A DNA stretch of 64,000 nt from Thioalkalivibrio sp. AKL19 (GTDB taxonomy: Bacteria > Pseudomonadota > Gammaproteobacteria > Ectothiorhodospirales > Ectothiorhodospiraceae): assembly GCF_000420165.1 (NCBI RefSeq), contig NZ_ATUK01000011.1:248001-312000 (forward strand), read 5' to 3'. Below, in pieces: positions 31,081 to 61,094 of the stretch; position 1 is the stretch's first letter; every line of letters starts with the position of its first letter. The notes under the pieces are model-generated. The model did not search any database and was not told where the DNA came from. It was given only the letters and a program-made list of their open reading frames with translations. The position numbers and the translations under genes were made by a program.

Positions 31081-31857
31081 TCAGGGCGTTCGGCGGGTGG
31101 CCAGCAGTCGTGCCACCACCGCGAGCGCGATATTCACCAGGACGAGAACCGGCGCAAAGGGCTGATCCAGCGGCAGGCTGAGGCTCCAGGCGATCAGGAA
31201 GCCCGTCAGGGCAATGGCTTGGGTCCACAGGAACAGCCCGCGCAGATTGCGCGCGAGATAGGCCGCGCCCCAGGCGGGCAGCAGCAGGGTGGCGAGGGCG
31301 GCGGGCAGCCCCAGCACCATGCTGCCCAGCACGACAGCGGCTACCAGCCAGCCGATCTCGGTGAGTCGCAGCCACGCGAGCGGGGCCGGTGTGGCGGGGA
31401 CGTCGGGGGCGAGCTGCGCGTGCCGCCATACGCGATACAGCCCGGGCGCGAGCGCGAGGCTGGCCAACCCGAGCGCGACCACCGCCCATAGTTCGCGGGG
31501 GCCGGCGAAGTACAGCTGGCCCTCGGCCCAGGCGGCCGCGGCGAGGCTGGCCTGAGCGAAATTGGCGGCCAGCAATGTCACGGCTGCCAGTCCCGCAAGA
31601 AAGACTGCAAGAGGCAAGCGCTCGCGGTCGGGGCTACGCTGCAGCAGGGCCATGACTCCGGCACCGAGTGCCAGTGCCACGGGCAGTACCGGCCAGTGAA
31701 AAACAGAAGCCAGGACGCCGCCAGTTGCGGCCCATTGCCCGAGCGCCAGGGCTTGCCAAACCGAACCGCGCAGGAATAGGCCGGCCCCGGCCAGGGCCAG
31801 CACGACCGTGATCAGCAGCCCGGCGACAAAGGGCAGGAACAGTAGGTCACCGAGCAT
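31081..31857 (-). CDS. Metal (zinc) ABC transporter permease, ABC-3 family
   Basis: This 258-residue protein has seven or eight hydrophobic helices, beginning LPFVAGLLITVVLALAGAGL and ending VLVLVNIALAVVARLLA. It fits the ABC-3 permease family (ZnuB/MntB) by its place next to a cation-binding protein and an ATPase, and by the GSVWQALALGQWAATGGVLA segment, the family's alternate cytoplasmic coupling region. It is diverged compared with ZnuB proper. The start overlaps the ATPase gene by 11 bases. It would import zinc across the inner membrane. Confidence 0.85.
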   Translation of the reverse strand: MLGDLLFLPFVAGLLITVVLALAGAGLFLRGSVWQALALGQWAATGGVLASVFHWPVLPVALALGAGVMALLQRSPDRERLPLAVFLAGLAAVTLLAANFAQASLAAAAWAEGQLYFAGPRELWAVVALGLASLALAPGLYRVWRHAQLAPDVPATPAPLAWLRLTEIGWLVAAVVLGSMVLGLPAALATLLLPAWGAAYLARNLRGLFLWTQAIALTGFLIAWSLSLPLDQPFAPVLVLVNIALAVVARLLATRRTP

Positions 31858-32455
31858 TGAGGTAGTCCGTCAGCGGGTGGTTCTCGGCCCCGACGGCCCG
31901 CAGGAAGTCGTCGTCGTGGCTGGTCATCACCAGGGTGGCATCGGTCGGGAGGGTGGCAATCAGTTCCACCGCGTCGCCGCGTACCTCGGCGTCGAGGTGG
32001 TTGGCGGGTTCATCCAGCAGGATCAGGCGTTCCTGCGGTCGCTGGTGGATGCCACTGTGCAGGGCCGCCGCCAGGCGCAGGAGTTGCCACTGGCCGCCAC
32101 TCAGGCGGTCGAGCCGGCGATTGAGCAAGGCTTGCACACGGGGCTGACCCGGTGCCGCTGCCCCCATCGCCCGGAACCAGTCGTGTCCGCACAAGGGCCA
32201 GGGATCCCGCCGGGAGTGGTCCTGCGCCAGCAGGCTGACGCGGGTCGAGGGTCCGAGCTCCAGCGTGCCTCCGTGTATCCGTGCCTGGCCGGTCACGGCC
32301 TTCAGCAGCAGGGACTTGCCGATGCCGTTCGGACCGGTCAGGGCCCATCGGGCCCCCGTGGGTACTTCAAGGGACAGCGGGCCCAGCACCGGGCGATGAA
32401 AGCCGAGGTGTACGGCCTGTGCGCGCAGGATGGCGAGGGCGGGCTGAGGCGTCAT
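31847..32455 (-). CDS. Metal (zinc) ABC transporter ATP-binding protein
   Basis: This ATPase of about 202 residues has Walker A LTGPNGIGKSLLLKAV, signature RLSGGQWQLLRLAAAL, Walker B LILLDEPANHLD and the switch His TSHDDDF. It is shorter than ZnuC (about 250) and lacks a C-terminal extension. The start is set at the second ATG of the frame, since the ten residues before it are unlike the family; the longer start (32485) remains possible. It overlaps the permease gene by 11 bases and follows the binding-protein gene by about 90 bases that contain a perfect hairpin. Confidence 0.88.
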   Translation of the reverse strand: MTPQPALAILRAQAVHLGFHRPVLGPLSLEVPTGARWALTGPNGIGKSLLLKAVTGQARIHGGTLELGPSTRVSLLAQDHSRRDPWPLCGHDWFRAMGAAAPGQPRVQALLNRRLDRLSGGQWQLLRLAAALHSGIHQRPQERLILLDEPANHLDAEVRGDAVELIATLPTDATLVMTSHDDDFLRAVGAENHPLTDYLNAR

Positions 32456-32490
32456 GCGAGCTCGCAAGGGTTGGGAGGGAGTCAATCATA

Positions 32491-32520
32491 TCGGGCCCGG
32501 AAGGCTTTTTCCGGGCCCGA
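32491..32520. other. Perfect 12-base-pair hairpin between binding-protein and ATPase genes
   Basis: TCGGGCCCGGAA (32491-32502) pairs with TTCCGGGCCCGA (32509-32520) around a six-base loop. It lies 27 bases after the binding-protein stop and 36 bases before the ATPase start. No T-run flanks it, so rather than a full terminator it may set the usual excess of binding protein over membrane components by stopping 3' decay or part of transcription. Confidence 0.6.
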
Positions 32521-32546
32521 TCGTCATGAAGGCTTTTTGCCCTGGG

Positions 32547-33473
32547 TCAGCGCTGAGGCAGCGTTTCAGCCCAGGTGGCCATCAGTTCCAGGTAGCCCTC
32601 CAGGGACGAATCCGCGGGCGGATCCAGCGGCACCGGATGACTGGCCCACCCGAGGTTGCGTTCCAGGAACTCCGCGCCGCGCGCTGGCTGGAAGGCCGCA
32701 TGGAGGACCGTGCCCTCGGTGCCTTCCAGGTCGCTCACCAGGCTGCGCAGGTGGCGCGCGGTGGGCGGGATGCCCGGAGCCGGTTCCAGATAGCCCACGA
32801 TCTCGACCGGGAGCCACTCCTCGAGGTAGTCGAGGTCCTCGTGGTAGACCACGATGCGTTGGTTCGGCTGGACCTGTTCGGCCAGTGTCTCGGCGTGGTC
32901 GCGCAGGCGTTCGGCGGCGCGCTCGGCGCGTTCCGTAAACGTGGTGGCATGGTCCGGGCGCAGGTCGCCCATGCGCTCGGCCAGCGCCAGGGCGATGTCT
33001 GCCAGGCGCAGCGGATCGGCGTTGAAGTGCGGGTTCCCCTCTTCGTGGACGTGGCCCATGTTCGGGCCGTCCATGGTGATGGAACGGCGCAGCTCGATCA
33101 TGTCCGCTGCCCGGAAGTGGCCCGGCTGGCCGGAGTTGATCGCGCGGTTGCGGGCGCCGCGCTGGGCGGCCGGCAGCCAGCCTTCCTCGAGCCCGGCGCC
33201 GATCTCGAGCAGCATGTCGGCGCGACGCAGGGCCGCCATGAAGCTCGGGCGGGCGTCCAGGTCGTGCGCGTCCCGGTCCGGCGGGGCGAGGACCCGGACC
33301 TCGGCCTCGTCACCGCCGATCTCGCGGGCCAGGGCGCCGAGGGTAGAGGTGGTGGCAACGATGTTCAGTCCGGCGGCGGCCTGCGACGGCAGCAGGAGCA
33401 AGCCCAGGAGTACCACCGAGGCGAGGGTGGCGAGCGTTCGGGTCATACGGATGCGAGTCTTGCGATAGGACAT
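32547..33473 (-). CDS. Metal (zinc) ABC transporter substrate-binding protein
   Basis: The 308-residue precursor begins with a signal peptide (LASVVLLGLLLLPSQAAAG). It belongs to the ZnuA/TroA cluster: LNIVATTSTLGALAREIGGD, metal ligands in RDAHDLDARPSFM (His) and EEGNPHFNADPLRL (His), and the helical backbone between lobes. ZnuA's long His-rich loop is missing, in line with MntC/TroA-like lengths, so the metal could be zinc or manganese; the Zur boxes upstream and the His-rich partner favour zinc. The AAAGGAG ribosome site supports the first ATG. Confidence 0.88.
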   Translation of the reverse strand: MSYRKTRIRMTRTLATLASVVLLGLLLLPSQAAAGLNIVATTSTLGALAREIGGDEAEVRVLAPPDRDAHDLDARPSFMAALRRADMLLEIGAGLEEGWLPAAQRGARNRAINSGQPGHFRAADMIELRRSITMDGPNMGHVHEEGNPHFNADPLRLADIALALAERMGDLRPDHATTFTERAERAAERLRDHAETLAEQVQPNQRIVVYHEDLDYLEEWLPVEIVGYLEPAPGIPPTARHLRSLVSDLEGTEGTVLHAAFQPARGAEFLERNLGWASHPVPLDPPADSSLEGYLELMATWAETLPQR

Positions 33474-33504
33474 GCGGGACTCCTTTCAGATCGGGATACG
33501 GGCG

Positions 33505-33541
33505 GAGGCAGGCAGGGACGGGAGCAGCCCCTGCCTGCCTC
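33505..33541. other. Perfect 13-base-pair hairpin after the outer-membrane gene
   Basis: GAGGCAGGCAGGG (33505-33517) pairs with CCCTGCCTGCCTC (33529-33541). It begins 19 bases after the outer-membrane protein stop and ends 32 bases before the binding-protein ATG. There is no T-run. As with the hairpin at 32491, it probably adjusts relative gene expression inside a co-transcribed zinc operon. Confidence 0.6.
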
Positions 33542-33559
33542 GCGAGGACAAGAGGCGGC

Positions 33560-34855
33560 CTAGAAGCGGTGGGCGCCGTGGGCGCCGAGGGCCACGTTCA
33601 GTTGCAGCATGAACTCCAGGCCGCGGTCGCGATCGCCGTGGTCATCGACAAAGTCGTTCTGCGACAGTTGGGCACGCAGGAAGACCGGCTCCACCGGGCG
33701 GAAGGTCACCTGGGCGGTGTGGCGATAGGAGGTGCCGAAGGTCTCGCCATCGCCGCGGCCGACGTCGTTGCTCAGGCCCAGGGCCTCGGCGCGCAGGCCG
33801 GCCTCCCAGCGCGGGGCAAAGCCGTAGACACCCTGGACGTAGATCCCGTCCTGCTGGTTCTTGAACGACTGTTCGTTACGCACGAAGCCCACCGGTCCGT
33901 TGCCGTCGGCTTCGAAGTTCACGTCACGCCGGTCGACGTCGATCTCGCGGTAGAAGTATTCGCCCTGCAGGCGCCAGTCACCATGGCCGTAGGCGCGGCC
34001 CGAGCTGTACTTGTACACCGCGTCCACTCCGGCGAACCAGGCGCTGCCGTCCCAGTCCTCGAAGCGGGTGGAGTGTTCGTCCGTCACCTGGTAGCTACGC
34101 GCATAGCCGCCGGAGACGCCGAACTGCGCCGCGTGGTCCGGCCCGAGATCCGGCCCGAACTTGGCAAAGGCGGTGACCAGGCGCGGCCCGGAGCGGTCGC
34201 GCAGGATGCGCTCCTGACCGTTGAGAGCCGACTGGCCGCCCTCGTAATTGGCGATCCCGCTGGTCTCGCCCTGCAGCAGTTCGACACCCAACTGGGTGTA
34301 GGTCGCGGTAGGGGCGAGCCAGGTGGCCTGTACGCCGGTTTCCTGCAGGCCGTGGTCGCCGAACAGGTACTCGTTGACCAGCGGGCGGTTCACGAAGTCC
34401 CACTCGTGGCCGTGGCGGCTGTTGATATAGCCGATGTCGGACAGAAACTTGCCGGCCTTGATCTGGAAACCGCCGGGCAGGGCGCGGGTGGTCAGGTAGG
34501 CCTCTTCAACCTCGATATCGCTGTCGTCGAAGCCAAGGGTCAGGACGCCGTCGAACAGATCGCCCAGTTGCGCGTCCAGCTTGATTTCGGAGTGCCCAAG
34601 ATTGAAGCCATCGTCGAAGCCGTGGTCATCGCCGTGGCCGTGGCCATGATCGTGGCCGTCATCGAAGCCGGCAGGCGAATCGTTGCCGTGCGAAAGTTCG
34701 TTGTAGTAGACGCCTTCGAGAATCAGGGATGCATCCAGGCCCCAGGACGAGTTGTCGCCACCGGCAGTCCATTGCGCCGCGGCGGCTCCGGGCGCGGCGA
34801 GAGTCAGGGCGGTCAGGCCGGCGAGGACCGGGCGGGCGTACGGAGTGCGAGGCAT
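33560..34855 (-). CDS. Outer-membrane beta-barrel protein of zinc-uptake locus, with His/Asp-rich loop
   Basis: The 431-residue precursor has a signal peptide (LAGLTALTLAAPGAAAAQ) and many amphipathic strands, ending in the outer-membrane type aromatic residue (AHRF). Near residues 62-80 it has a His/Asp/Gly-rich loop (DDGHDHGHGHGDDHGFDDG) likely to bind zinc. The family (DUF-type porin, seen next to zinc ABC genes) has been proposed to pass metals through the outer membrane; it has no TonB box or plug. The start at 34855 has an AGGAG site. Two Zur-like dyads lie upstream. Substrate specificity is inference. Confidence 0.82.
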   Translation of the reverse strand: MPRTPYARPVLAGLTALTLAAPGAAAAQWTAGGDNSSWGLDASLILEGVYYNELSHGNDSPAGFDDGHDHGHGHGDDHGFDDGFNLGHSEIKLDAQLGDLFDGVLTLGFDDSDIEVEEAYLTTRALPGGFQIKAGKFLSDIGYINSRHGHEWDFVNRPLVNEYLFGDHGLQETGVQATWLAPTATYTQLGVELLQGETSGIANYEGGQSALNGQERILRDRSGPRLVTAFAKFGPDLGPDHAAQFGVSGGYARSYQVTDEHSTRFEDWDGSAWFAGVDAVYKYSSGRAYGHGDWRLQGEYFYREIDVDRRDVNFEADGNGPVGFVRNEQSFKNQQDGIYVQGVYGFAPRWEAGLRAEALGLSNDVGRGDGETFGTSYRHTAQVTFRPVEPVFLRAQLSQNDFVDDHGDRDRGLEFMLQLNVALGAHGAHRF

Positions 34856-34918
34856 TTTGGGCTCCTGGTTGCGCGGCAGTCTGCTGTTCTGGACAGTGCC
34901 AATCAACGGAAATGGGCT

Positions 34919-34959
34919 GTTATAGCGTAACGATCGGCCGATAAACGTTATACAATAAC
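34919..34959. promoter_or_regulatory. Two Zur-box-like dyads upstream of the zinc operon
   Basis: GTTATAGCGTAAC (34919-34931) and GTTATACAATAAC (34947-34959) share the GTTAT...ATAAC dyad of gammaproteobacterial Zur operators (core TGTTATA-n-TATAACA). They are 28 bases apart, or nearly three helical turns, and end 64-104 bases upstream of the outer-membrane protein ATG. Low zinc should relieve repression by the Zur protein encoded two genes on. The promoter boxes probably lie within these sites (TATAAC-like), but I could not fix them. Confidence 0.75.
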
Positions 34960-35003
34960 AGTTCGCGATTCAACCCTGATCTTGCGCGCCGGTGCGGTGC
35001 CGG

Positions 35004-35516
35004 TCAGTCGCCTGGAAGGCCGGCGAGGGCGAAGGCGTCGCGCCAGGGTTCCAGCTTCTCGGTCAGGCTGAGGCGGGCGTTGGCGGGACTTGTGGAGGGC
35101 AGGCGCAGGGCCTCGACGCCCAGGGCGCGGGTCTCGCGGATGCGCCGCGCGCTCTCGGCGCCGTTATGGACGATCACGCGCAGGCCCGGGGCCTCGCGGG
35201 TCAGGCGGGCGAGATCGTTGGGGACCGGGGCGCGGATGGCGCTGTCCAGGCTCCCCTCGCGTGAGCAGGCACCGTACACGTCCCAGAGGCCCACGCCGTG
35301 GTCGAGCAGGCGCTGGATACGCTCGGGGTAATCCATTTCCGGGAAGGGCTCGCCCAGAATCTGCCCGACAATCGGCCAGAACTGGTTGCGCGGGTGGGCG
35401 TAGTAGGCCTGGGCTTCCAGGGAGGCGACGCCGGGAAAGCTGCCCAGCACGATCAGGCGAGTGTCCGCACGCAGAATGGGCGGGAATGCCTCAAGAGTCG
35501 GCGCGGCGGCGGTCAT
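35004..35516 (-). CDS. DNA-deoxyinosine glycosylase (uracil-DNA glycosylase superfamily, hypoxanthine-DNA glycosylase type)
   Basis: The 170-residue protein excises hypoxanthine from deaminated DNA according to its family. Motifs are VLGSFPGVASL (motif I), YYAHPRNQFWPIVGQIL and the C-terminal LPSTSPANARL. The catalytic water-binding residue common in family I UDGs is replaced by Asn/Phe in the HPRNQFW block. The start at 35516 is tentative because an upstream frame overlaps the zur end. It shares the strand with zur, ending before the zinc promoter region, so it may be in the zur transcript. Confidence 0.82.
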   Translation of the reverse strand: MTAAAPTLEAFPPILRADTRLIVLGSFPGVASLEAQAYYAHPRNQFWPIVGQILGEPFPEMDYPERIQRLLDHGVGLWDVYGACSREGSLDSAIRAPVPNDLARLTREAPGLRVIVHNGAESARRIRETRALGVEALRLPSTSPANARLSLTEKLEPWRDAFALAGLPGD

Positions 35517-35542
35517 CCGGACGTCGGTGTAGGCCGGAGGCG

Positions 35543-36025
35543 TCAGGCGCGGTCCTGCTGACCCCGGCGGCAGTCGCCGCACTGACCGTGCAGCTCCACC
35601 ATGCGCGACTCGATGGCGAAGTCCTGGGCCTCGGCCTCGTCCTCCAGCGCCTGGCTGGCCGGCTCGGGGGTGTGGAATTCGGTGATCTGGCCGCAGCCGT
35701 CGCAGATCATCAGCGCCGACTCGTGGCGCTCGCCGGGATGCGAGCAGGCGACGAAGCCGTTCAGGCTCTCGATGCGGTGGATCAGGCCCTGCTCCAGCAG
35801 GAAGCCCAGGGTACGGTAGACCGTCGGCGGCTTGATGCTGTGATCATCGGAGGACAGCGCGTGGATCAGGTCGTAGGCCTTGATCACGCCGTCGGTGCGC
35901 AGGATCTGTTCGAGGATACGCCGGCGTTGCTCGGTCAGGCGCGCGCCATGGCGGGCACACACCCGCTCGGCATCGGCGAGGGCCTGTTTGATGTCCGGCG
36001 TCTGGGTCTCGGCGGCGGCAGTCAT
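35543..36025 (-). CDS. zur: Zinc uptake regulator Zur (Fur family)
   Basis: The 160-residue Fur-family repressor has a winged helix (GARLTEQRRRILEQILRTDG, then KPPTVYRTLGFLLEQGLIHR) and a dimerisation domain with the structural zinc cysteines (CDGCG and CGDC) plus the regulatory His/Cys cluster (ACSHPGERHESALMIC). This Cys pattern is that of Zur rather than Fur or PerR. A start at 36043 is also possible. Zur bound to zinc would repress the divergent outer-membrane/ABC operon through the boxes at 34919-34959, giving a complete local regulon. Confidence 0.93.
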   Translation of the reverse strand: MTAAAETQTPDIKQALADAERVCARHGARLTEQRRRILEQILRTDGVIKAYDLIHALSSDDHSIKPPTVYRTLGFLLEQGLIHRIESLNGFVACSHPGERHESALMICDGCGQITEFHTPEPASQALEDEAEAQDFAIESRMVELHGQCGDCRRGQQDRA

Positions 36026-36073
36026 GCGCCAAGCATAGCCCAAACGTGCCGGGCGCCCGAAACGCCCTGCTGT

Positions 36074-37102
36074 TCAGGCGGGGCTAGTGACGGTGGTCGC
36101 TTTGACCTCGGCCTCGGTCAGCCGGGTCGCCTCCGGTCGGGCGAAGATCTCGGCGGACCAGCGGGCGCGTTCGGCCGCCGGTTCGGTCTCGCGTGCCACC
36201 ATGTGGGCGTCCACAGCGGTGATCCGGTGGTCGAGACCCTCGCCGTTGGCGATCTGGATGGCAAGGCCTGGACGGGCATTGAGCTCCAGGATCAGTGGTC
36301 CGCGGTCGGCGTCGATGACCACGTCCACCCCCAGGTAGCCGAGCTGACTCAGTTCAAAGCAGCCGGCGGCCAGTTCCATCAGCTCATCCCAGCCGGGAAT
36401 CTGCAACCCGACGATGCTCTGCTCGCTGTCGGGGTGTTCGCGGCAGGGGTTGTTGTAGCGCACCCCGCCGATGGTGCGGCCGGAACCGAGGTCGATGCCC
36501 GTGCCGACCGCGCCCTGGTGCAGGTTGGCCTTGCCATCGGAGTCCTGCGTTGGCAGGCGCATCATCGCCATCACCGGGTAGCCGCGATAGACCACCGTGC
36601 GAATGTCCGGCACGCCGCGATGCGCGACGGCATCGAAGACCGAGGAAAAACGGACTCGCTGTTCGATCATCGCGACATCCGGGCGCCCGCCCAGGCTGTA
36701 CATGCCGGAGAGGACGTTCGAGATGTGGTCGTCCAGCTCGCTCAGCTCCATGGCGCGGCCGCCGGCGCGCCGCGGGCGGTCGCCGCGCCAGCCTTCGATC
36801 ACCAGGATGCCGTCGCCGGCGGCGCCATGCGCCGGCTTGATCACGAAGCCGTCTTCATACTCCCGCAGCTGGCGCCGCACGTCGCGGATCTGGCGGTGGG
36901 TGCGCACGACCCCGTAGAGGTCGGGTACGGACAGGCCGGCGTCCAGCGCCAGTTGCTTGGTCTGCAGCTTGTCGTCCACCCGCGGGTAGAAGCGCCGGGC
37001 GTTCCAGGCGGCGATATAACGGGCATTGCGGGCGTTCATACCCACGATGCCCTGCTCCTTCAGCAGCTTGGGGCGTACGAAGCGCGGCAGCCAGGCGGGC
37101 AT
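36074..37102 (-). CDS. RimK-related alpha-L-glutamate ligase-like ATP-grasp protein
   Basis: This 342-residue ATP-grasp enzyme matches the RimK-related group: RYIAAWNARRFYPRVDDKLQ (not a catalytic block but typical N-terminus), DGFVIKPAHGAAGDGILVIE for ATP, DIRTVVYRGYPVMAMMRLPT and LGVDVVIDADRGPLILELNA with the Mg2+ ligands. Members ligate an amino acid, often Glu, to a carboxylate; the acceptor here is unknown. It overlaps the transglutaminase/7TM gene by one base, and with the secreted protease gene the three form a tightly coupled operon in many gammaproteobacteria. I recall links of this trio to osmotic adaptation, but am not certain. Confidence 0.9.
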   Translation of the reverse strand: MPAWLPRFVRPKLLKEQGIVGMNARNARYIAAWNARRFYPRVDDKLQTKQLALDAGLSVPDLYGVVRTHRQIRDVRRQLREYEDGFVIKPAHGAAGDGILVIEGWRGDRPRRAGGRAMELSELDDHISNVLSGMYSLGGRPDVAMIEQRVRFSSVFDAVAHRGVPDIRTVVYRGYPVMAMMRLPTQDSDGKANLHQGAVGTGIDLGSGRTIGGVRYNNPCREHPDSEQSIVGLQIPGWDELMELAAGCFELSQLGYLGVDVVIDADRGPLILELNARPGLAIQIANGEGLDHRITAVDAHMVARETEPAAERARWSAEIFARPEATRLTEAEVKATTVTSPA

Positions 37103-38637
37103 CAGTCGGTCCTCCGCATCGCGTCCTGGATACGTCCGAAGCGGAACAGTTCGGTCAGGCGGTAGCCGGTGTAGCGCCCCAGCAGCAGGGTCACGGCCAG
37201 CAGCACCAGCAGCAGTTCCGGGAACACAAACAGGAGATGCTCCAGCTGGCGGTTGGCCATCAGGCCGTAAGCGGCGGCCGCGACCACCAGGCTGCCAATG
37301 CCCTGGGTGATGGCATCGGCGGGGCCGTGTTCCTCCCAGACCACCGACATGCGCTCGATGGTCATGGCGAGGATGACCATCGGGAACAGTGACAGCGCCA
37401 GGGCGCGCTCGAAGCCGAGCTGGTGCGACAGGATGCTGATCCCGAGCATGAGCATGATCACCACGCTGACCACTGCCGCCAGGCGCGGGACCAGTAGCAG
37501 TCTGAGGTGCTCGAGGTAGAAGCGCACCACGAGACCCAGCGACACGATCAGCGTGAACAGGATGATCCCGGCCAGCAGCTGGGTCTCGCGGAAGGACAGT
37601 GCGATCAGCACTGGCATGAAGGTGCCGAAGGTCTGTATCCCGATCACGTTGCGCAGGAACACGATGATCATCGCGCCCAACGGCACCATTAGCAGTACCC
37701 GGTAGGTGTTCTGTGTGCCCAGCGGCAGGTTCAGGGTGGAGAAGTCGAGGATGCGGGTGTCGAGGGTGTCGCCGAAGCGCTGGATGGTCGCGAGGGCGTC
37801 TTGGACTCCGCGCGATACCGCAAACCGCACCTCGGCATTCTCGCCGTTGGTGATCTCCAGCAGCGGGGCGTCGCCATGGGCCCAGACGACCACGTCGGAC
37901 GGATATTCGATTTCGCCCGTCTCCGGGTCGATGGGCACCCAGCGCCGGGTATTGTGGACCTCCAGCCAGGTCTGCGGCTCGATATCCCGGCGCCCGTCAA
38001 TCAGTCTCAGGGCGGTCACCTGCCGGGCCGGGATGCGGGCGGTGGCGAGGAGTTCGATCAGGGTCTCGGTGCGGCTTGCGCGGTCGTCGTCGCTCTCGAT
38101 GAACACCGCGGCGTTCGACGACGGCGCGGCGTTGGCGAGGTCGTTGACCAGCACCGATGCGAAGCTCTGGATATTGGACGAACGGCTCCGAACGTCGTCA
38201 ATCAGGGCGTCGGCGGCCGAGCGATAGGGCTCGGTCCAGTCGGGTACGGCCACCGGCCCGGGGTAGTCCGACTCCGAGCGGTCATTGCCGTCGCGGTAGA
38301 GCGTGGCGCGGTAGTACAGCACCTGTTCGCCCCGCGGTTGGCGCGTGGTCCAGTGTGCCAGGCGGTCTTCCGCCTGGGCGAGGGTGTTCAGCCCGTAGCC
38401 GCGCGAGACGAAGCCCTCGTCCAGGATCGAAAAGTTGGGCAGGCGGTGCGGGATGCGCAGTTCCACCGAGGCCGCGCCGCCGGTGGGCTGGTAGCGCACG
38501 CGCGCCTCCACCAGCCAGGTTTCGGCGGTGGCGTCCGGCTGCAGGGGCATCCCCAGCGCGCTGACCTTGTAGGCGAAGACCCCGAGCCCGATCGCGCTCA
38601 GCAGCACGATGAGGATCGGCAGGTGGAAGCGCCTCAC
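37102..38637 (-). CDS. Inactive transglutaminase fused to seven transmembrane helices (UUP1 family)
   Basis: This 511-residue protein begins with an uncleaved N-terminal helix (LPILIVLLSAIGLGVFAYKV), has a periplasmic transglutaminase-like domain (about 130-265) with LRLIDGRRDIEPQTWLEVHN and no Cys at the expected catalytic site, and ends with about seven transmembrane helices (from 312 on, LLMVPLGAMIIVFLRNVIGI and following). It is likely a membrane scaffold or peptide-binding receptor. The start overlaps the end of the protease gene by 4 bases, and its stop overlaps the ATP-grasp start. Its ligand is unknown. Confidence 0.88.
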   Translation of the reverse strand: MRRFHLPILIVLLSAIGLGVFAYKVSALGMPLQPDATAETWLVEARVRYQPTGGAASVELRIPHRLPNFSILDEGFVSRGYGLNTLAQAEDRLAHWTTRQPRGEQVLYYRATLYRDGNDRSESDYPGPVAVPDWTEPYRSAADALIDDVRSRSSNIQSFASVLVNDLANAAPSSNAAVFIESDDDRASRTETLIELLATARIPARQVTALRLIDGRRDIEPQTWLEVHNTRRWVPIDPETGEIEYPSDVVVWAHGDAPLLEITNGENAEVRFAVSRGVQDALATIQRFGDTLDTRILDFSTLNLPLGTQNTYRVLLMVPLGAMIIVFLRNVIGIQTFGTFMPVLIALSFRETQLLAGIILFTLIVSLGLVVRFYLEHLRLLLVPRLAAVVSVVIMLMLGISILSHQLGFERALALSLFPMVILAMTIERMSVVWEEHGPADAITQGIGSLVVAAAAYGLMANRQLEHLLFVFPELLLVLLAVTLLLGRYTGYRLTELFRFGRIQDAMRRTD

Positions 38638-39182
38638 TGGTCATCCGCCGGACAGTCCGGGGCGCGCAGATGTTCCTCCCCGGAGTCCACCAGGATGTGT
38701 CCGGCCATGTGGCTGCGCCCGATCAGGGTCTGGTAGGTGAGGGCCGTGCGGTCGATCAGGCTGGTGTCAGCGGTCAGCAGCCGGTCGCCGATGCAGAATT
38801 CCATGCGCACCACCGGGCGTTCCTGCGACTCGCCGCTGTGGCGGCGGATGCGCACGATGCGTTCGATCGGGCGTTCCAGGGTGATGCGCGCGTCCTCGTC
38901 GTCCGGATCGATGATCTCGAAGCGGATCCAGTCCTCGCCGTCCTTCTCGAAGCGTTCCTTGTTCAGCGCATTCAGGGACGAGGAGGTGGCGCCGGTATCC
39001 ATGCGTGCCTCCAGCACAACGTCCTCCTCGACGATCTTCACGTTCTCCACCGCGCCCAGAATGGCCATGGAGGGACTCGACTCGTGCGCCATGGCGGATT
39101 GCGCGAGGAACACGAATCCAAGCAGCATGGTCGGCAGAAGGGATTGGGTTAAGCTGGGGCGACGGGCGGCTGGGGCAGTCAC
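38634..39182 (-). CDS. Secreted retropepsin-like protease (RimB/ATP-dependent zinc protease family)
   Basis: The 182-residue precursor has a signal peptide (LLPTMLLGFVFLAQSAMA) and a domain with the aspartic-protease motif ARMDTGATSSSLNA, FEIIDPDDEDARITLERPIE and the C-terminal YQTLIGRSHMAGHILVDSG. Databases name these ATP-dependent zinc proteases, but the DTGA signature indicates retropepsin-like chemistry. Being exported, it could cut a periplasmic product of, or a substrate for, the adjacent ATP-grasp and transglutaminase-like proteins. It leads the three-gene operon. The promoter lies in the 117-base gap shared with ppsA. Confidence 0.85.
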   Translation of the reverse strand: MTAPAARRPSLTQSLLPTMLLGFVFLAQSAMAHESSPSMAILGAVENVKIVEEDVVLEARMDTGATSSSLNALNKERFEKDGEDWIRFEIIDPDDEDARITLERPIERIVRIRRHSGESQERPVVRMEFCIGDRLLTADTSLIDRTALTYQTLIGRSHMAGHILVDSGEEHLRAPDCPADDQ

Positions 39183-39299
39183 GCAGTCTCCTGAAGTTTA
39201 CAAAACACGGAATGTTAGCTGATCACACTTGCCAGCCCCTGTTAAGGGGTTCACAAACTTCGGGAATGTTCAGGATTCCCGTGGAGTCCGGGAGTTGCC

Positions 39300-54567: not shown

Positions 54568-54718
54568 ACCATCGCCTGGCGCGATCGGGCTGCTGGCGAG
54601 ACCGCCGAGGAATGCGGGGGTCGCGGTTCACTGCGTTTGCGGGGTGTTGTGCCGACGGATCGGCCCCGGGCCCGTCCGTTCACGCTTACAACAGCAGCAA
54701 AAGCCAAGAGGAACCAGC

Positions 54719-55537
54719 ATGGCAGCGAACATCAAGAATGATCAGGACTTCGGTGACAAGCCGACCGAACGCCGCGATACCGAGAACTACCTCAACGAGT
54801 ACACCACCGGCTTCGTCGACAAGTGGGATGACCTGATCGACTGGGACAACCGCGCCAAGAGCGAAGGCACCTTCTTCATCGAGGAACTGAAGAAGCGTGG
54901 CGCCAAGCGCGTGCTGGACGTGGCTGCCGGTACCGGTTTCCATTCCGTGCAGCTCCTCGAGGCCGGTTTCGACGTGGTGACCGCCGACGGTGCGCCGGAG
55001 ATGCTCGTCAAGGCCTTCGAGAACGGTCGCAAGCGCGGGCACATCCTGCGCACCGTGCAGGCCGACTGGCGCATGCTGAACCGCGATATCTACGGCCGCT
55101 ACGACGCCGTGGTCTGTCTCGGCAACTCGTTTACCCACCTGTTCAATGAACACGACCGCCGCAAGGCACTGGCCGAGTTCTACTCCGCCCTGAACCACGA
55201 TGGCGTGCTGATCCTTGACCAGCGCAACTACGACACCATCATGGACCACGGCTACTCGTCCAAGCACACCTACTACTACTGCGGCGACGACGTCCAGGTG
55301 CAGCCGGCCCACGTTGACGAAGGCCTGGCGCGCTTCCAGTACAAGTTCCCGGATGGCTCCGAGTACTTCCTGAACATGTTCCCGCTGCGCAAGGCCTATG
55401 TCCGCCGCCTGATGCGCGAGGTCGGTTTCCAGAAGATCGAGACCTACGGGGACTTCCAGGAGACCTACCGCGAGACCGATCCCGACTTCTTCATCCACGT
55501 GGCCGACAAGCGTTATATCGAGGGCGAGGAACGATGA
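54719..55537 (+). CDS. gsmt: Glycine/sarcosine N-methyltransferase
   Basis: GSMT methylates glycine to sarcosine and then dimethylglycine with AdoMet, the first two steps of betaine synthesis from glycine. The 272-residue protein has the AdoMet motif VLDVAAGTGFHSVQLLEAGF and the family segments DKWDDLIDWDNRAKSEGTFF and LDQRNYDTIMDHGYSSKHTY. It starts after AAGAGGAACC. The protein is acidic, as is common in halophiles. The 4-base overlap with the next gene (ATGA) couples it to sdmt, in the arrangement of Ectothiorhodospira and Halorhodospira. Expected to be induced at high salt. Confidence 0.95.
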   Translation: MAANIKNDQDFGDKPTERRDTENYLNEYTTGFVDKWDDLIDWDNRAKSEGTFFIEELKKRGAKRVLDVAAGTGFHSVQLLEAGFDVVTADGAPEMLVKAFENGRKRGHILRTVQADWRMLNRDIYGRYDAVVCLGNSFTHLFNEHDRRKALAEFYSALNHDGVLILDQRNYDTIMDHGYSSKHTYYYCGDDVQVQPAHVDEGLARFQYKFPDGSEYFLNMFPLRKAYVRRLMREVGFQKIETYGDFQETYRETDPDFFIHVADKRYIEGEER

Positions 55538-56382
55538 GCGAGAACTACTCCGACGTAGTCGAGACCGCTCGCGACTACTACAACAGCGAGGACGCCGACA
55601 CCTTCTACAAGATGGTGTGGGGTGGTGAAGACCTCCATATCGGTTTGTACGAATACAAGGACGAGCCGATCGGCGACGCCAGCCGCCGTACCGTCGCGCA
55701 CATGTCCGATCTCCTGGGCGAGCCGCAGCCAGAATGGCGCGTGCTCGACATGGGCGCCGGTTACGGCGGTGTCGCGCGCTACCTGGTGGAAAACTACGGT
55801 TGTGATGTCACCGCGCTGAACCTGTCCGAGAAGGAAAACGAGCGCGATCGCGAGATCAACAAGGCGCGTCACCTCGACGACAAGATCACCGTGGTCGACG
55901 GCTCCTTCGAGAAGGTCGACGAGCCGGACGAATCCTACGATGTCGTCTGGTCCGAGGACTCCTTCCTGCACAGCCAGAACGAAGACAAGAAGAAGGTGAT
56001 CCAGGAGGCCGCGCGCGTCCTGAAGCCGGGTGGCTGGCTGATCTTCACCGATCCGATGCAGACCGACGACTGCCCGGATGGCGTGCTGGACCCGATCCTG
56101 GCCCGCATCCATCTGGATTCGCTGGCGAGCCCGTCGCTGTACCGCGAGGCGGCCAAGGCGGCCGGCCTGGAAGAGGTCAGCTTCGAGGAGCACTCCGGTC
56201 AGATCTCGACCCATTACGGTCGCGTGAAGCAGGAGCTCGAGTCCCGCGAGGACGAGCTGAAGAACTACATCTCGCAGGACTACATCGACCGCATGAAGCA
56301 GGGCCTGCAGCACTGGGTCGATGGCGGCAACTCGGGTTACCTGACCTGGGGCATCTTCCGCTTCCGCAAGCCGGCCCGCTAA
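55534..56382 (+). CDS. sdmt: Sarcosine/dimethylglycine N-methyltransferase
   Basis: SDMT methylates sarcosine and dimethylglycine to glycine betaine, the major compatible solute of halophiles. The 282-residue protein has VLDMGAGYGGVARYLVENYG for AdoMet, LNLSEKENERDREINKARHL and DVVWSEDSFLHSQNEDKKKV. The acidic composition fits a high-salt cytoplasm. Together with gsmt it is a complete route from glycine to betaine. Three AdoMet are used per betaine, producing SAH that must be cleared by enzymes elsewhere, while metH 0.9 kb on re-methylates homocysteine. Confidence 0.95.
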   Translation: MSENYSDVVETARDYYNSEDADTFYKMVWGGEDLHIGLYEYKDEPIGDASRRTVAHMSDLLGEPQPEWRVLDMGAGYGGVARYLVENYGCDVTALNLSEKENERDREINKARHLDDKITVVDGSFEKVDEPDESYDVVWSEDSFLHSQNEDKKKVIQEAARVLKPGGWLIFTDPMQTDDCPDGVLDPILARIHLDSLASPSLYREAAKAAGLEEVSFEEHSGQISTHYGRVKQELESREDELKNYISQDYIDRMKQGLQHWVDGGNSGYLTWGIFRFRKPAR

Positions 56383-56412
56383 TCGCGCGCAGGACCGAGG
56401 GGCTGGCCGCCG

Positions 56413-57147
56413 TCAGGCGGGCAGCCGCCTCCAGACCCCGTCCACGCGGCCTTCGAGCGGCTGGAAGCGGGTCTTGTATTCCATCTTCGGCGCCTGGTCG
56501 ATCCAGTAGCCGAGGTAGACATGGGGCAGACCCAGGCGGTGCGCATGTGCCACCTGGGTCAGGATTGCGAGGGTGCCCAGGCCGCGACGCGGCTGGTCCG
56601 GATCGAAGAAGCTGTACATCGCCGACAGCCCCTGCGGGGTGCGGTCGGTGACGGCCACCGCCACCAGCGTACCGGCCTGGCGGAATTCGATCAGATCCAC
56701 CGGGCCGTTGCGGTGCGCAAGCATCCCCGCGTATTCCTCGTGCCCCATCTGCTCCATGCCGCCGCCCGCGTGGCGGCTGGCCTGGTAGCGCGAAAACAAC
56801 GGCATGTGCTCGTCGAGATCGGCGGCGGGCCCTGTCCCGGGCTGCTCCGGCGGGCGCCGGATGGCAACCGCGAGATCGTGGTTGCGGTTCAGGCAGCGGC
56901 GCTGGCTCCGGTTCGGGCGGAAATTCGCCACCGGGATACGCACCGGCACGCAGGCGGCGCACTCGGGGCAATGATGCCGATAGACAAACTGGCCGCTGCG
57001 GCGAAAGCCCTCGGCGAGTAGCTGGCCAAAGCGCGCCCCGCCCAGACTGACCGCGGGGTCGACCAGCAGACTCTGCATCTCGCGGTCGTCCAGATAGGGG
57101 CAGGCCTGCGGGGCAGTGATGAACCAGCGGATCGGATGTTCCTGCAT
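56413..57147 (-). CDS. bpt: Aspartate/glutamate leucyltransferase Bpt (arginyl-tRNA-protein transferase family)
   Basis: Bpt transfers leucine from its tRNA to N-terminal Asp or Glu, marking proteins for ClpS/ClpAP degradation. The 244-residue protein has the N-terminal Cys motif [17 protein letters not shown], the [19 protein letters not shown] zinc-like region, and [19 protein letters not shown] as in ATE1/Bpt. The start is placed at 57147, since this MQEHPIRWF opening matches the family and longer starts overlap nothing useful. It converges on sdmt and diverges from metH. Confidence 0.93.
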
Positions 57148-57302
57148 GGCGCTATCGTGACAGTTCTGCTCACGGGCGCAACCAGGCCGCATCCGGGGCC
57201 GCCACGAGACACGAAAGGGCCTGCCACCAGGGTGGGCTCCACGCACGGGATGGAACCCCGGCGTGTACACTTATCCCATTCGAAACCAATGGTGTACGGC
57301 AC

Positions 57303-61094
<3,792 letters not shown>

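Follow-up and report, generated by a model that had tools for sequence, protein, structure and literature searches.

An rlo operon in Thioalkalivibrio sp. AKL19 and the mutual exclusion of a live transglutaminase triad and an adjacent RloA protease among RloB loci

Three consecutive genes of Thioalkalivibrio sp. AKL19, encoding a probably exported retropepsin-like protease (RloA), a membrane protein with an inactive transglutaminase domain (RloB), and an ATP-grasp ligase (RloC), form an rlo operon. This kind of operon is already known; it was published in 2025 for Pseudomonas aeruginosa, whose three genes were then named rloA, rloB, and rloC (PMC12239564). The new result of the present analysis comes from a comparison of 95 RloB loci, none of which combines a live transglutaminase with an adjacent RloA gene. 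We regard this as a strong lead, not as proof. We infer that RloC makes polyglutamate, that RloB passes it across the membrane, and that RloA has replaced the hydrolase that RloB lost, a model whose chances as a whole we consider evenly balanced. It is supported by the protein families, the intact active sites of ligase and protease, the dead transglutaminase, the linkage of the genes, and the exclusivity.

In the window, that is, the whole stretch of 64,000 nucleotides analyzed, the three genes follow each other on the minus strand in the order rloA, rloB, and rloC (Table 1), and this order, adjacency, and shared strand are conserved in relatives. The genes overlap by four bases and one base, as the first-pass annotation had described: GTGA is common to the rloA stop and the rloB start, and the single A of TGATG belongs to both the rloB stop and the rloC start. 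A search of the region for an Rfam family, a consensus promoter, and a terminator found none. Next to the trio lie a zur-like gene on the downstream side and, on the other, a divergent PEP synthase gene. The zur-like regulator starts 30 bases past rloC and belongs to a zinc-uptake neighborhood (31081–36043, minus strand), which also encodes a porin-like protein, a zinc-binding protein, an ATPase, and a likely permease.

Table 1. Positions of the rlo genes and their parts in the window.
Feature	Coordinates	Strand	Basis
rloA, secreted (probable) retropepsin-like aspartic protease, 182 aa, GTG start	38634..39182	-	PF05618; NCBIfam; solved relatives
rloB, inactive transglutaminase fused to multi-helix membrane domain, 511 aa, GTG start	37102..38637	-	PF14400 + PF14402; NCBIfam; AlphaFold2
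rloC, RimK-like ATP-grasp ligase, 342 aa, ATG start	36074..37102	-	TIGR02291; catalytic residues as in RimK
RloA probable signal peptide, residues 1–32, AMA before the cut	39087..39182	-	read from sequence
RloA catalytic DTGA, residues 62–65	38988..38999	-	conservation in 35 relatives
AGGAG, likely ribosome-binding site of rloA	39188..39192	-	read from sequence
RloB transglutaminase-fold domain, residues 38–279, triad lost	37801..38526	-	structural matches to 3isr and TgpA; alignment
RloB membrane domain, residues 306–510	37108..37722	-	PF14402; helices in predicted model
Overlap GTGA, rloA stop and rloB start	38634..38637	-	sequence
Overlap in TGATG, rloB stop and rloC start	37102..37102	-	sequence

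RloA matches the Zn_protease family of Pfam (PF05618, 122.7 bits). Among NCBIfam models its scores descend from RloA3 through RloA2 and RloA1 to RimB, each below the curated cut-off; the RloA models represent the Pseudomonas paralogues. In an alignment with 35 relatives, D62 and G64 of the DTGA motif are invariant and A65 is nearly so. The N-terminus, read by eye, resembles a signal peptide ending in AMA, so that RloA is probably exported; of 80 RloA open reading frames, 64 showed a signal-like stretch in a simple test of hydrophobicity. Solved structures exist for RloA of P. aeruginosa and other relatives (9g59/9g58). The P. aeruginosa enzyme has a positively charged channel and cuts runs of 8 or 10 glutamates, but not 6; mutation of R114 and R137 impairs cleavage and abolishes rescue (PMC12239564). 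In our reading of the alignment, R122 and R145 of the window protein appear to correspond to these two residues.

RloC matches an ATP-grasp family (PF14397, 296 bits) and, at 417 bits, exceeds the cut-off of 314 bits that NCBIfam sets for alpha-L-glutamate ligase-like proteins (TIGR02291). Its ATP- and metal-binding residues and its NLH motif are those of RimK and are kept in essentially all 124 sequences compared, as expected of a cytoplasmic RimK-related ligase. RimK makes poly-alpha-L-glutamate when RimB stimulates it, which shows such chemistry to exist in relatives (PMC11957791). Like the trio, the RimK-RimB system, which polyglutamylates ribosomal S6, pairs an ATP-grasp glutamate ligase with a retropepsin; unlike it, RimB lacks a signal peptide and there is no membrane protein. 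The window trio is not a RimBK system, given the signal-like N-terminus of RloA and the absence from RloC of the RimK N-terminal domain (PF18030), which is present in the genome's separate RimK. That RimK is encoded on another contig beside the genome's one other PF05618 protein, for which RimB is the best NCBIfam match, under the cut-off. Because this second protein is RimB-like and adjoins rimK, rloA would encode the genome's only secreted member of the family.

RloB has two Pfam matches, Transglut_i_TM (PF14400, 159.6 bits) and 7TM_transglut (PF14402, 340 bits), and scores 445 bits against the NCBIfam model inact_TG_RloB, below its cut-off of 900. At the triad positions neither the window protein nor 36 aligned relatives have a Cys or a His. 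A PDB sequence search with RloB gave no significant match. The AlphaFold2 model (pLDDT 89.6) clearly predicts the fold of a transglutaminase-type cysteine protease, with structural matches to 3isr (Z 15.6, 221 residues, rmsd 3.7) and TgpA (Z 7.4). RloB thus joins an inactive periplasmic transglutaminase to a membrane domain, and Pfam, NCBIfam, and alignments agree with the first-pass assignment of a cytoplasmic ligase, a membrane protein with a dead transglutaminase, and an exported DTGA protease.

The trio is nearly always found together in Gammaproteobacteria, an arrangement that is not due to chance. Among 369 genomes of the class, PF14402 occurs in 79 and TIGR02291 in 72. We compared 63 strong RloB loci, one of which is that of the window: 60 have RloA next to RloB, 61 have RloC there, and at the two others without RloC the contig ends. 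The A-B-C arrangement is counted in 60 of the 63. The genes are hence not commonly apart; the first-pass annotation had named their separation as something that would speak against a joint pathway. Where the junction of rloB and rloC was measured (61 loci), the two genes overlap in 33, in most cases by one base or four. Three dead-triad loci of the window type lack an adjacent RloA, and one of their genomes has no PF05618 match at all. The only candidate for a fourth conserved gene in the window-type operon is an AstE/AspA-like gene (succinylglutamate desuccinylase/aspartoacylase), which is present in 9 of the 63 loci and absent from the window; it lies directly after rloC, at L039 (9222–10577) and eight other loci. 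No conserved cell-wall gene or betaine gene was found beside the trio in relatives. We also observed short RloB relatives consisting of the membrane part only, with no alignable transglutaminase domain, beside an RloC homologue (L136, 6897–8021; L141, 7080–8237).

Divergent RloB homologues exist in which the Cys-His-Asp triad is intact and no RloA is nearby. The exclusivity of the two features was scored on loci drawn by the membrane domain alone, regardless of the active site; 95 loci were scored, and two further sampled loci without an alignable transglutaminase domain stand outside this number. RloA, counted as adjacent if within 1.5 kb, accompanies 76 of the 80 dead triads and none of the 15 live ones. 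Two of these loci (L072 and L075) were set to live by reading of the motif, the automatic alignment having misplaced columns and scored both as dead. At L075 an RloA gene lies 4.8 kb away on the opposite strand. Fisher's test of triad state against RloA gives p = 3.5e-14, yet the loci share descent. On the tree we count three changes of triad state, and the independent pairs number just two or three, which is not enough for a corrected test; few independent evolutionary events, about three changes, stand behind a replacement of the hydrolase. One class of loci (class 3) contains both live and dead triads.

A scan of named genomes with the live-triad form yielded 45 loci. Its query, the peptide KLGEASCN, contains the active-site Cys and biases the result to live triads, and the scan was excluded from the exclusivity test. 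The loci come from Gammaproteobacteria, Nitrosomonadales, Zetaproteobacteria, Nitrospirota, Desulfobulbaceae, Campylobacterales, Flavobacteriales, Spirochaetes, and others. Most loci are four-gene operons encoding RloB, RloC, a TPR protein, and an outer-membrane barrel (e.g., L150, 7001–12676; also L157, L160, L162, L176, and L187). At scores under the curated cut-offs, the TPR protein resembles PrsT of XrtA/PEP-CTERM systems, and the barrel has a weak likeness to the exopolysaccharide outer-membrane protein EpsL. The live-triad operons have a homologous RloB membrane domain and identical RloC catalytic residues to those of the window, but differ in their intact triad, lack of RloA, added TPR protein and barrel, and wide distribution beyond Proteobacteria, in many phyla. 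We found no description of the four-gene operon in the literature examined, though one may exist elsewhere. Its identification with the known twisted-stalk (sfz) cluster was rejected, as the sfz paper does not mention a transglutaminase.

The operon of P. aeruginosa has the same three families, order, and compartments as that of the window, a dead transglutaminase, and a DTGA protease whose channel has the same basic residues. It differs in having three RloA paralogues, compared with the single secreted RloA of the window genome, and window RloA and RloB fall under the Pseudomonas-specific NCBIfam cut-offs. Without its three RloA paralogues P. aeruginosa does not grow in low salt, and removal of rloB or rloC fully restores the low-salt growth of the triple mutant (PMC12239564), as expected if RloB and RloC act before RloA. 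This epistasis, together with cleavage of polyglutamate (PMC12239564), agrees with the shared ligase, membrane protein, and protease pathway within the first-pass proposal of making, sensing, and cutting. Sensing by RloB found no support, and handling or transport by RloB fits at least as well. The function had also been called unsettled, which no longer applies to the substrate class of RloA, known in vitro (PMC12239564), and still applies to the RloC product and the role of RloB, both left undecided by the authors of that study (PMC12239564). Elsewhere, a study of P. aeruginosa exopolysaccharide hit PA1766–PA1768 in a suppressor screen, PA1767 is among the P. aeruginosa mutants less susceptible to ceftazidime, and loss of an inactive transglutaminase in Shewanella increases vesicle production.

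In the model that we prefer, RloC would use ATP to join glutamates in the cytoplasm into an acidic chain, free or carrier-bound. At the inner membrane RloB would hand over or present this chain, which its dead transglutaminase domain would hold without cutting, and RloA would trim the chain in the periplasm, having taken over a cutting step formerly done by RloB. If cutting failed, uncut chain would build up outside the membrane and the envelope would fail in low salt. The transport role of RloB is suggested by its position in the operon. In the live-triad form, the transglutaminase domain of RloB would itself do the trimming, and the TPR protein and barrel would carry the chain outwards. A broader version of this model, which we hold tentatively and think somewhat improbable, is that RloB and RloC constitute a membrane-coupled polyglutamate synthase and exporter, of which one form has its own transglutaminase-type hydrolase and exports through the TPR protein and barrel; in the window's lineage the hydrolase would have died, a secreted retropepsin taken over, and the chain stayed periplasmic.

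The published phenotypes could also reflect a modified protein or peptidoglycan. For the first, RloC would glutamylate an exported protein or envelope component, RloB would be a scaffold or sensor, and RloA would strip the tag, with no free polymer. There is precedent in RimK, which tags ribosomal protein S6, and RimB, which takes the tag off; in vitro RloA cuts RpsF that carries the tag, and in reporters it cuts polyglutamate placed internally (PMC12239564), and the periplasmic domain of RloB is predicted to be large and to have a peptide-binding fold. However, no periplasmic target was found (PMC12239564), and the TPR protein and outer-membrane barrel of the live-triad form fit the export of a polymer, which leaves protein tagging rather unlikely. 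For the second, RloC and RloB would add glutamates to a peptidoglycan precursor or stem peptide and RloA would trim them, its loss weakening the wall. The shape defects and cell-wall antibiotic sensitivity of rloA mutants agree with this, as does control by VxrB in Vibrio cholerae (PMC12239564), but RloA requires a run of at least eight alpha-linked glutamates, absent from peptidoglycan, and no wall gene is conserved next to the operon. We consider an action on peptidoglycan quite improbable.

A comparison of RloC-RloB can be drawn with the poly-gamma-glutamate synthase PgsB-PgsC (CapB-CapC), in which an ATP-dependent ligase and a membrane subunit likewise produce polyglutamate. Unlike RloC, PgsB is not an ATP-grasp ligase. 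The membrane domains of PgsC/CapC and RloB both have a proline-bearing half-helix and similar helix lengths, and for both the best structural match among membrane proteins is subunit D of Na+-NQR (Z about 7), the CapC model being of low confidence (pLDDT 65.6). Sequence comparison gave no support for homology: profiles yielded E 0.03 (0.0016 at best, with half-domains), an unrelated membrane family scored equally, and neither hhalign nor rank tests against background membrane proteins rose above controls. PF14102 has no match in the genome, and none in RloB at E up to 10. RloB is accordingly not placed in the PgsC/CapC family on the sequence comparisons, and sequence-profile tests supported no kinship to any known exporter. 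Proteins of ~1080 residues with two tandem CapC domains were seen at L116–L118 and L122–L126.

The first-pass annotation had placed the trio next to betaine genes and favored an osmotic role. The placement did not hold. The betaine methyltransferase genes (54644–56382) are ~15.5 kb away, with zur and the PEP synthase gene as the actual neighbors, and neither this distance nor the neighbors in relatives support an association. These genes open a betaine-synthesis cluster on the plus strand (54644–61094), glycine/sarcosine and sarcosine/dimethylglycine methyltransferases being followed by the methionine synthase gene metH. The osmotic role does draw support from the hypo-osmotic phenotype published for the P. 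aeruginosa operon (PMC12239564), but not from betaine genes so distant. A small glutamyl osmolyte, made or recycled by the operon and tied to betaine metabolism, would suit both this main published phenotype, hypo-osmotic sensitivity (PMC12239564), and the presence of the two methyltransferases in the genome. Yet none of the betaine genes is conserved beside the trio, and the substrate of RloA is long glutamate runs, not dipeptides; we regard such an osmolyte as very unlikely.

The split into live-transglutaminase and retropepsin forms offers a concrete reason for the dead domain of RloB. If the replacement is true, the RloC product should be a shared substrate of the two hydrolases. In P. aeruginosa the rlo operon influences survival in low salt, antibiotic tolerance, and biofilms. 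As the Thioalkalivibrio genome has one secreted RloA, a single deletion should show there what took a triple mutant in P. aeruginosa.
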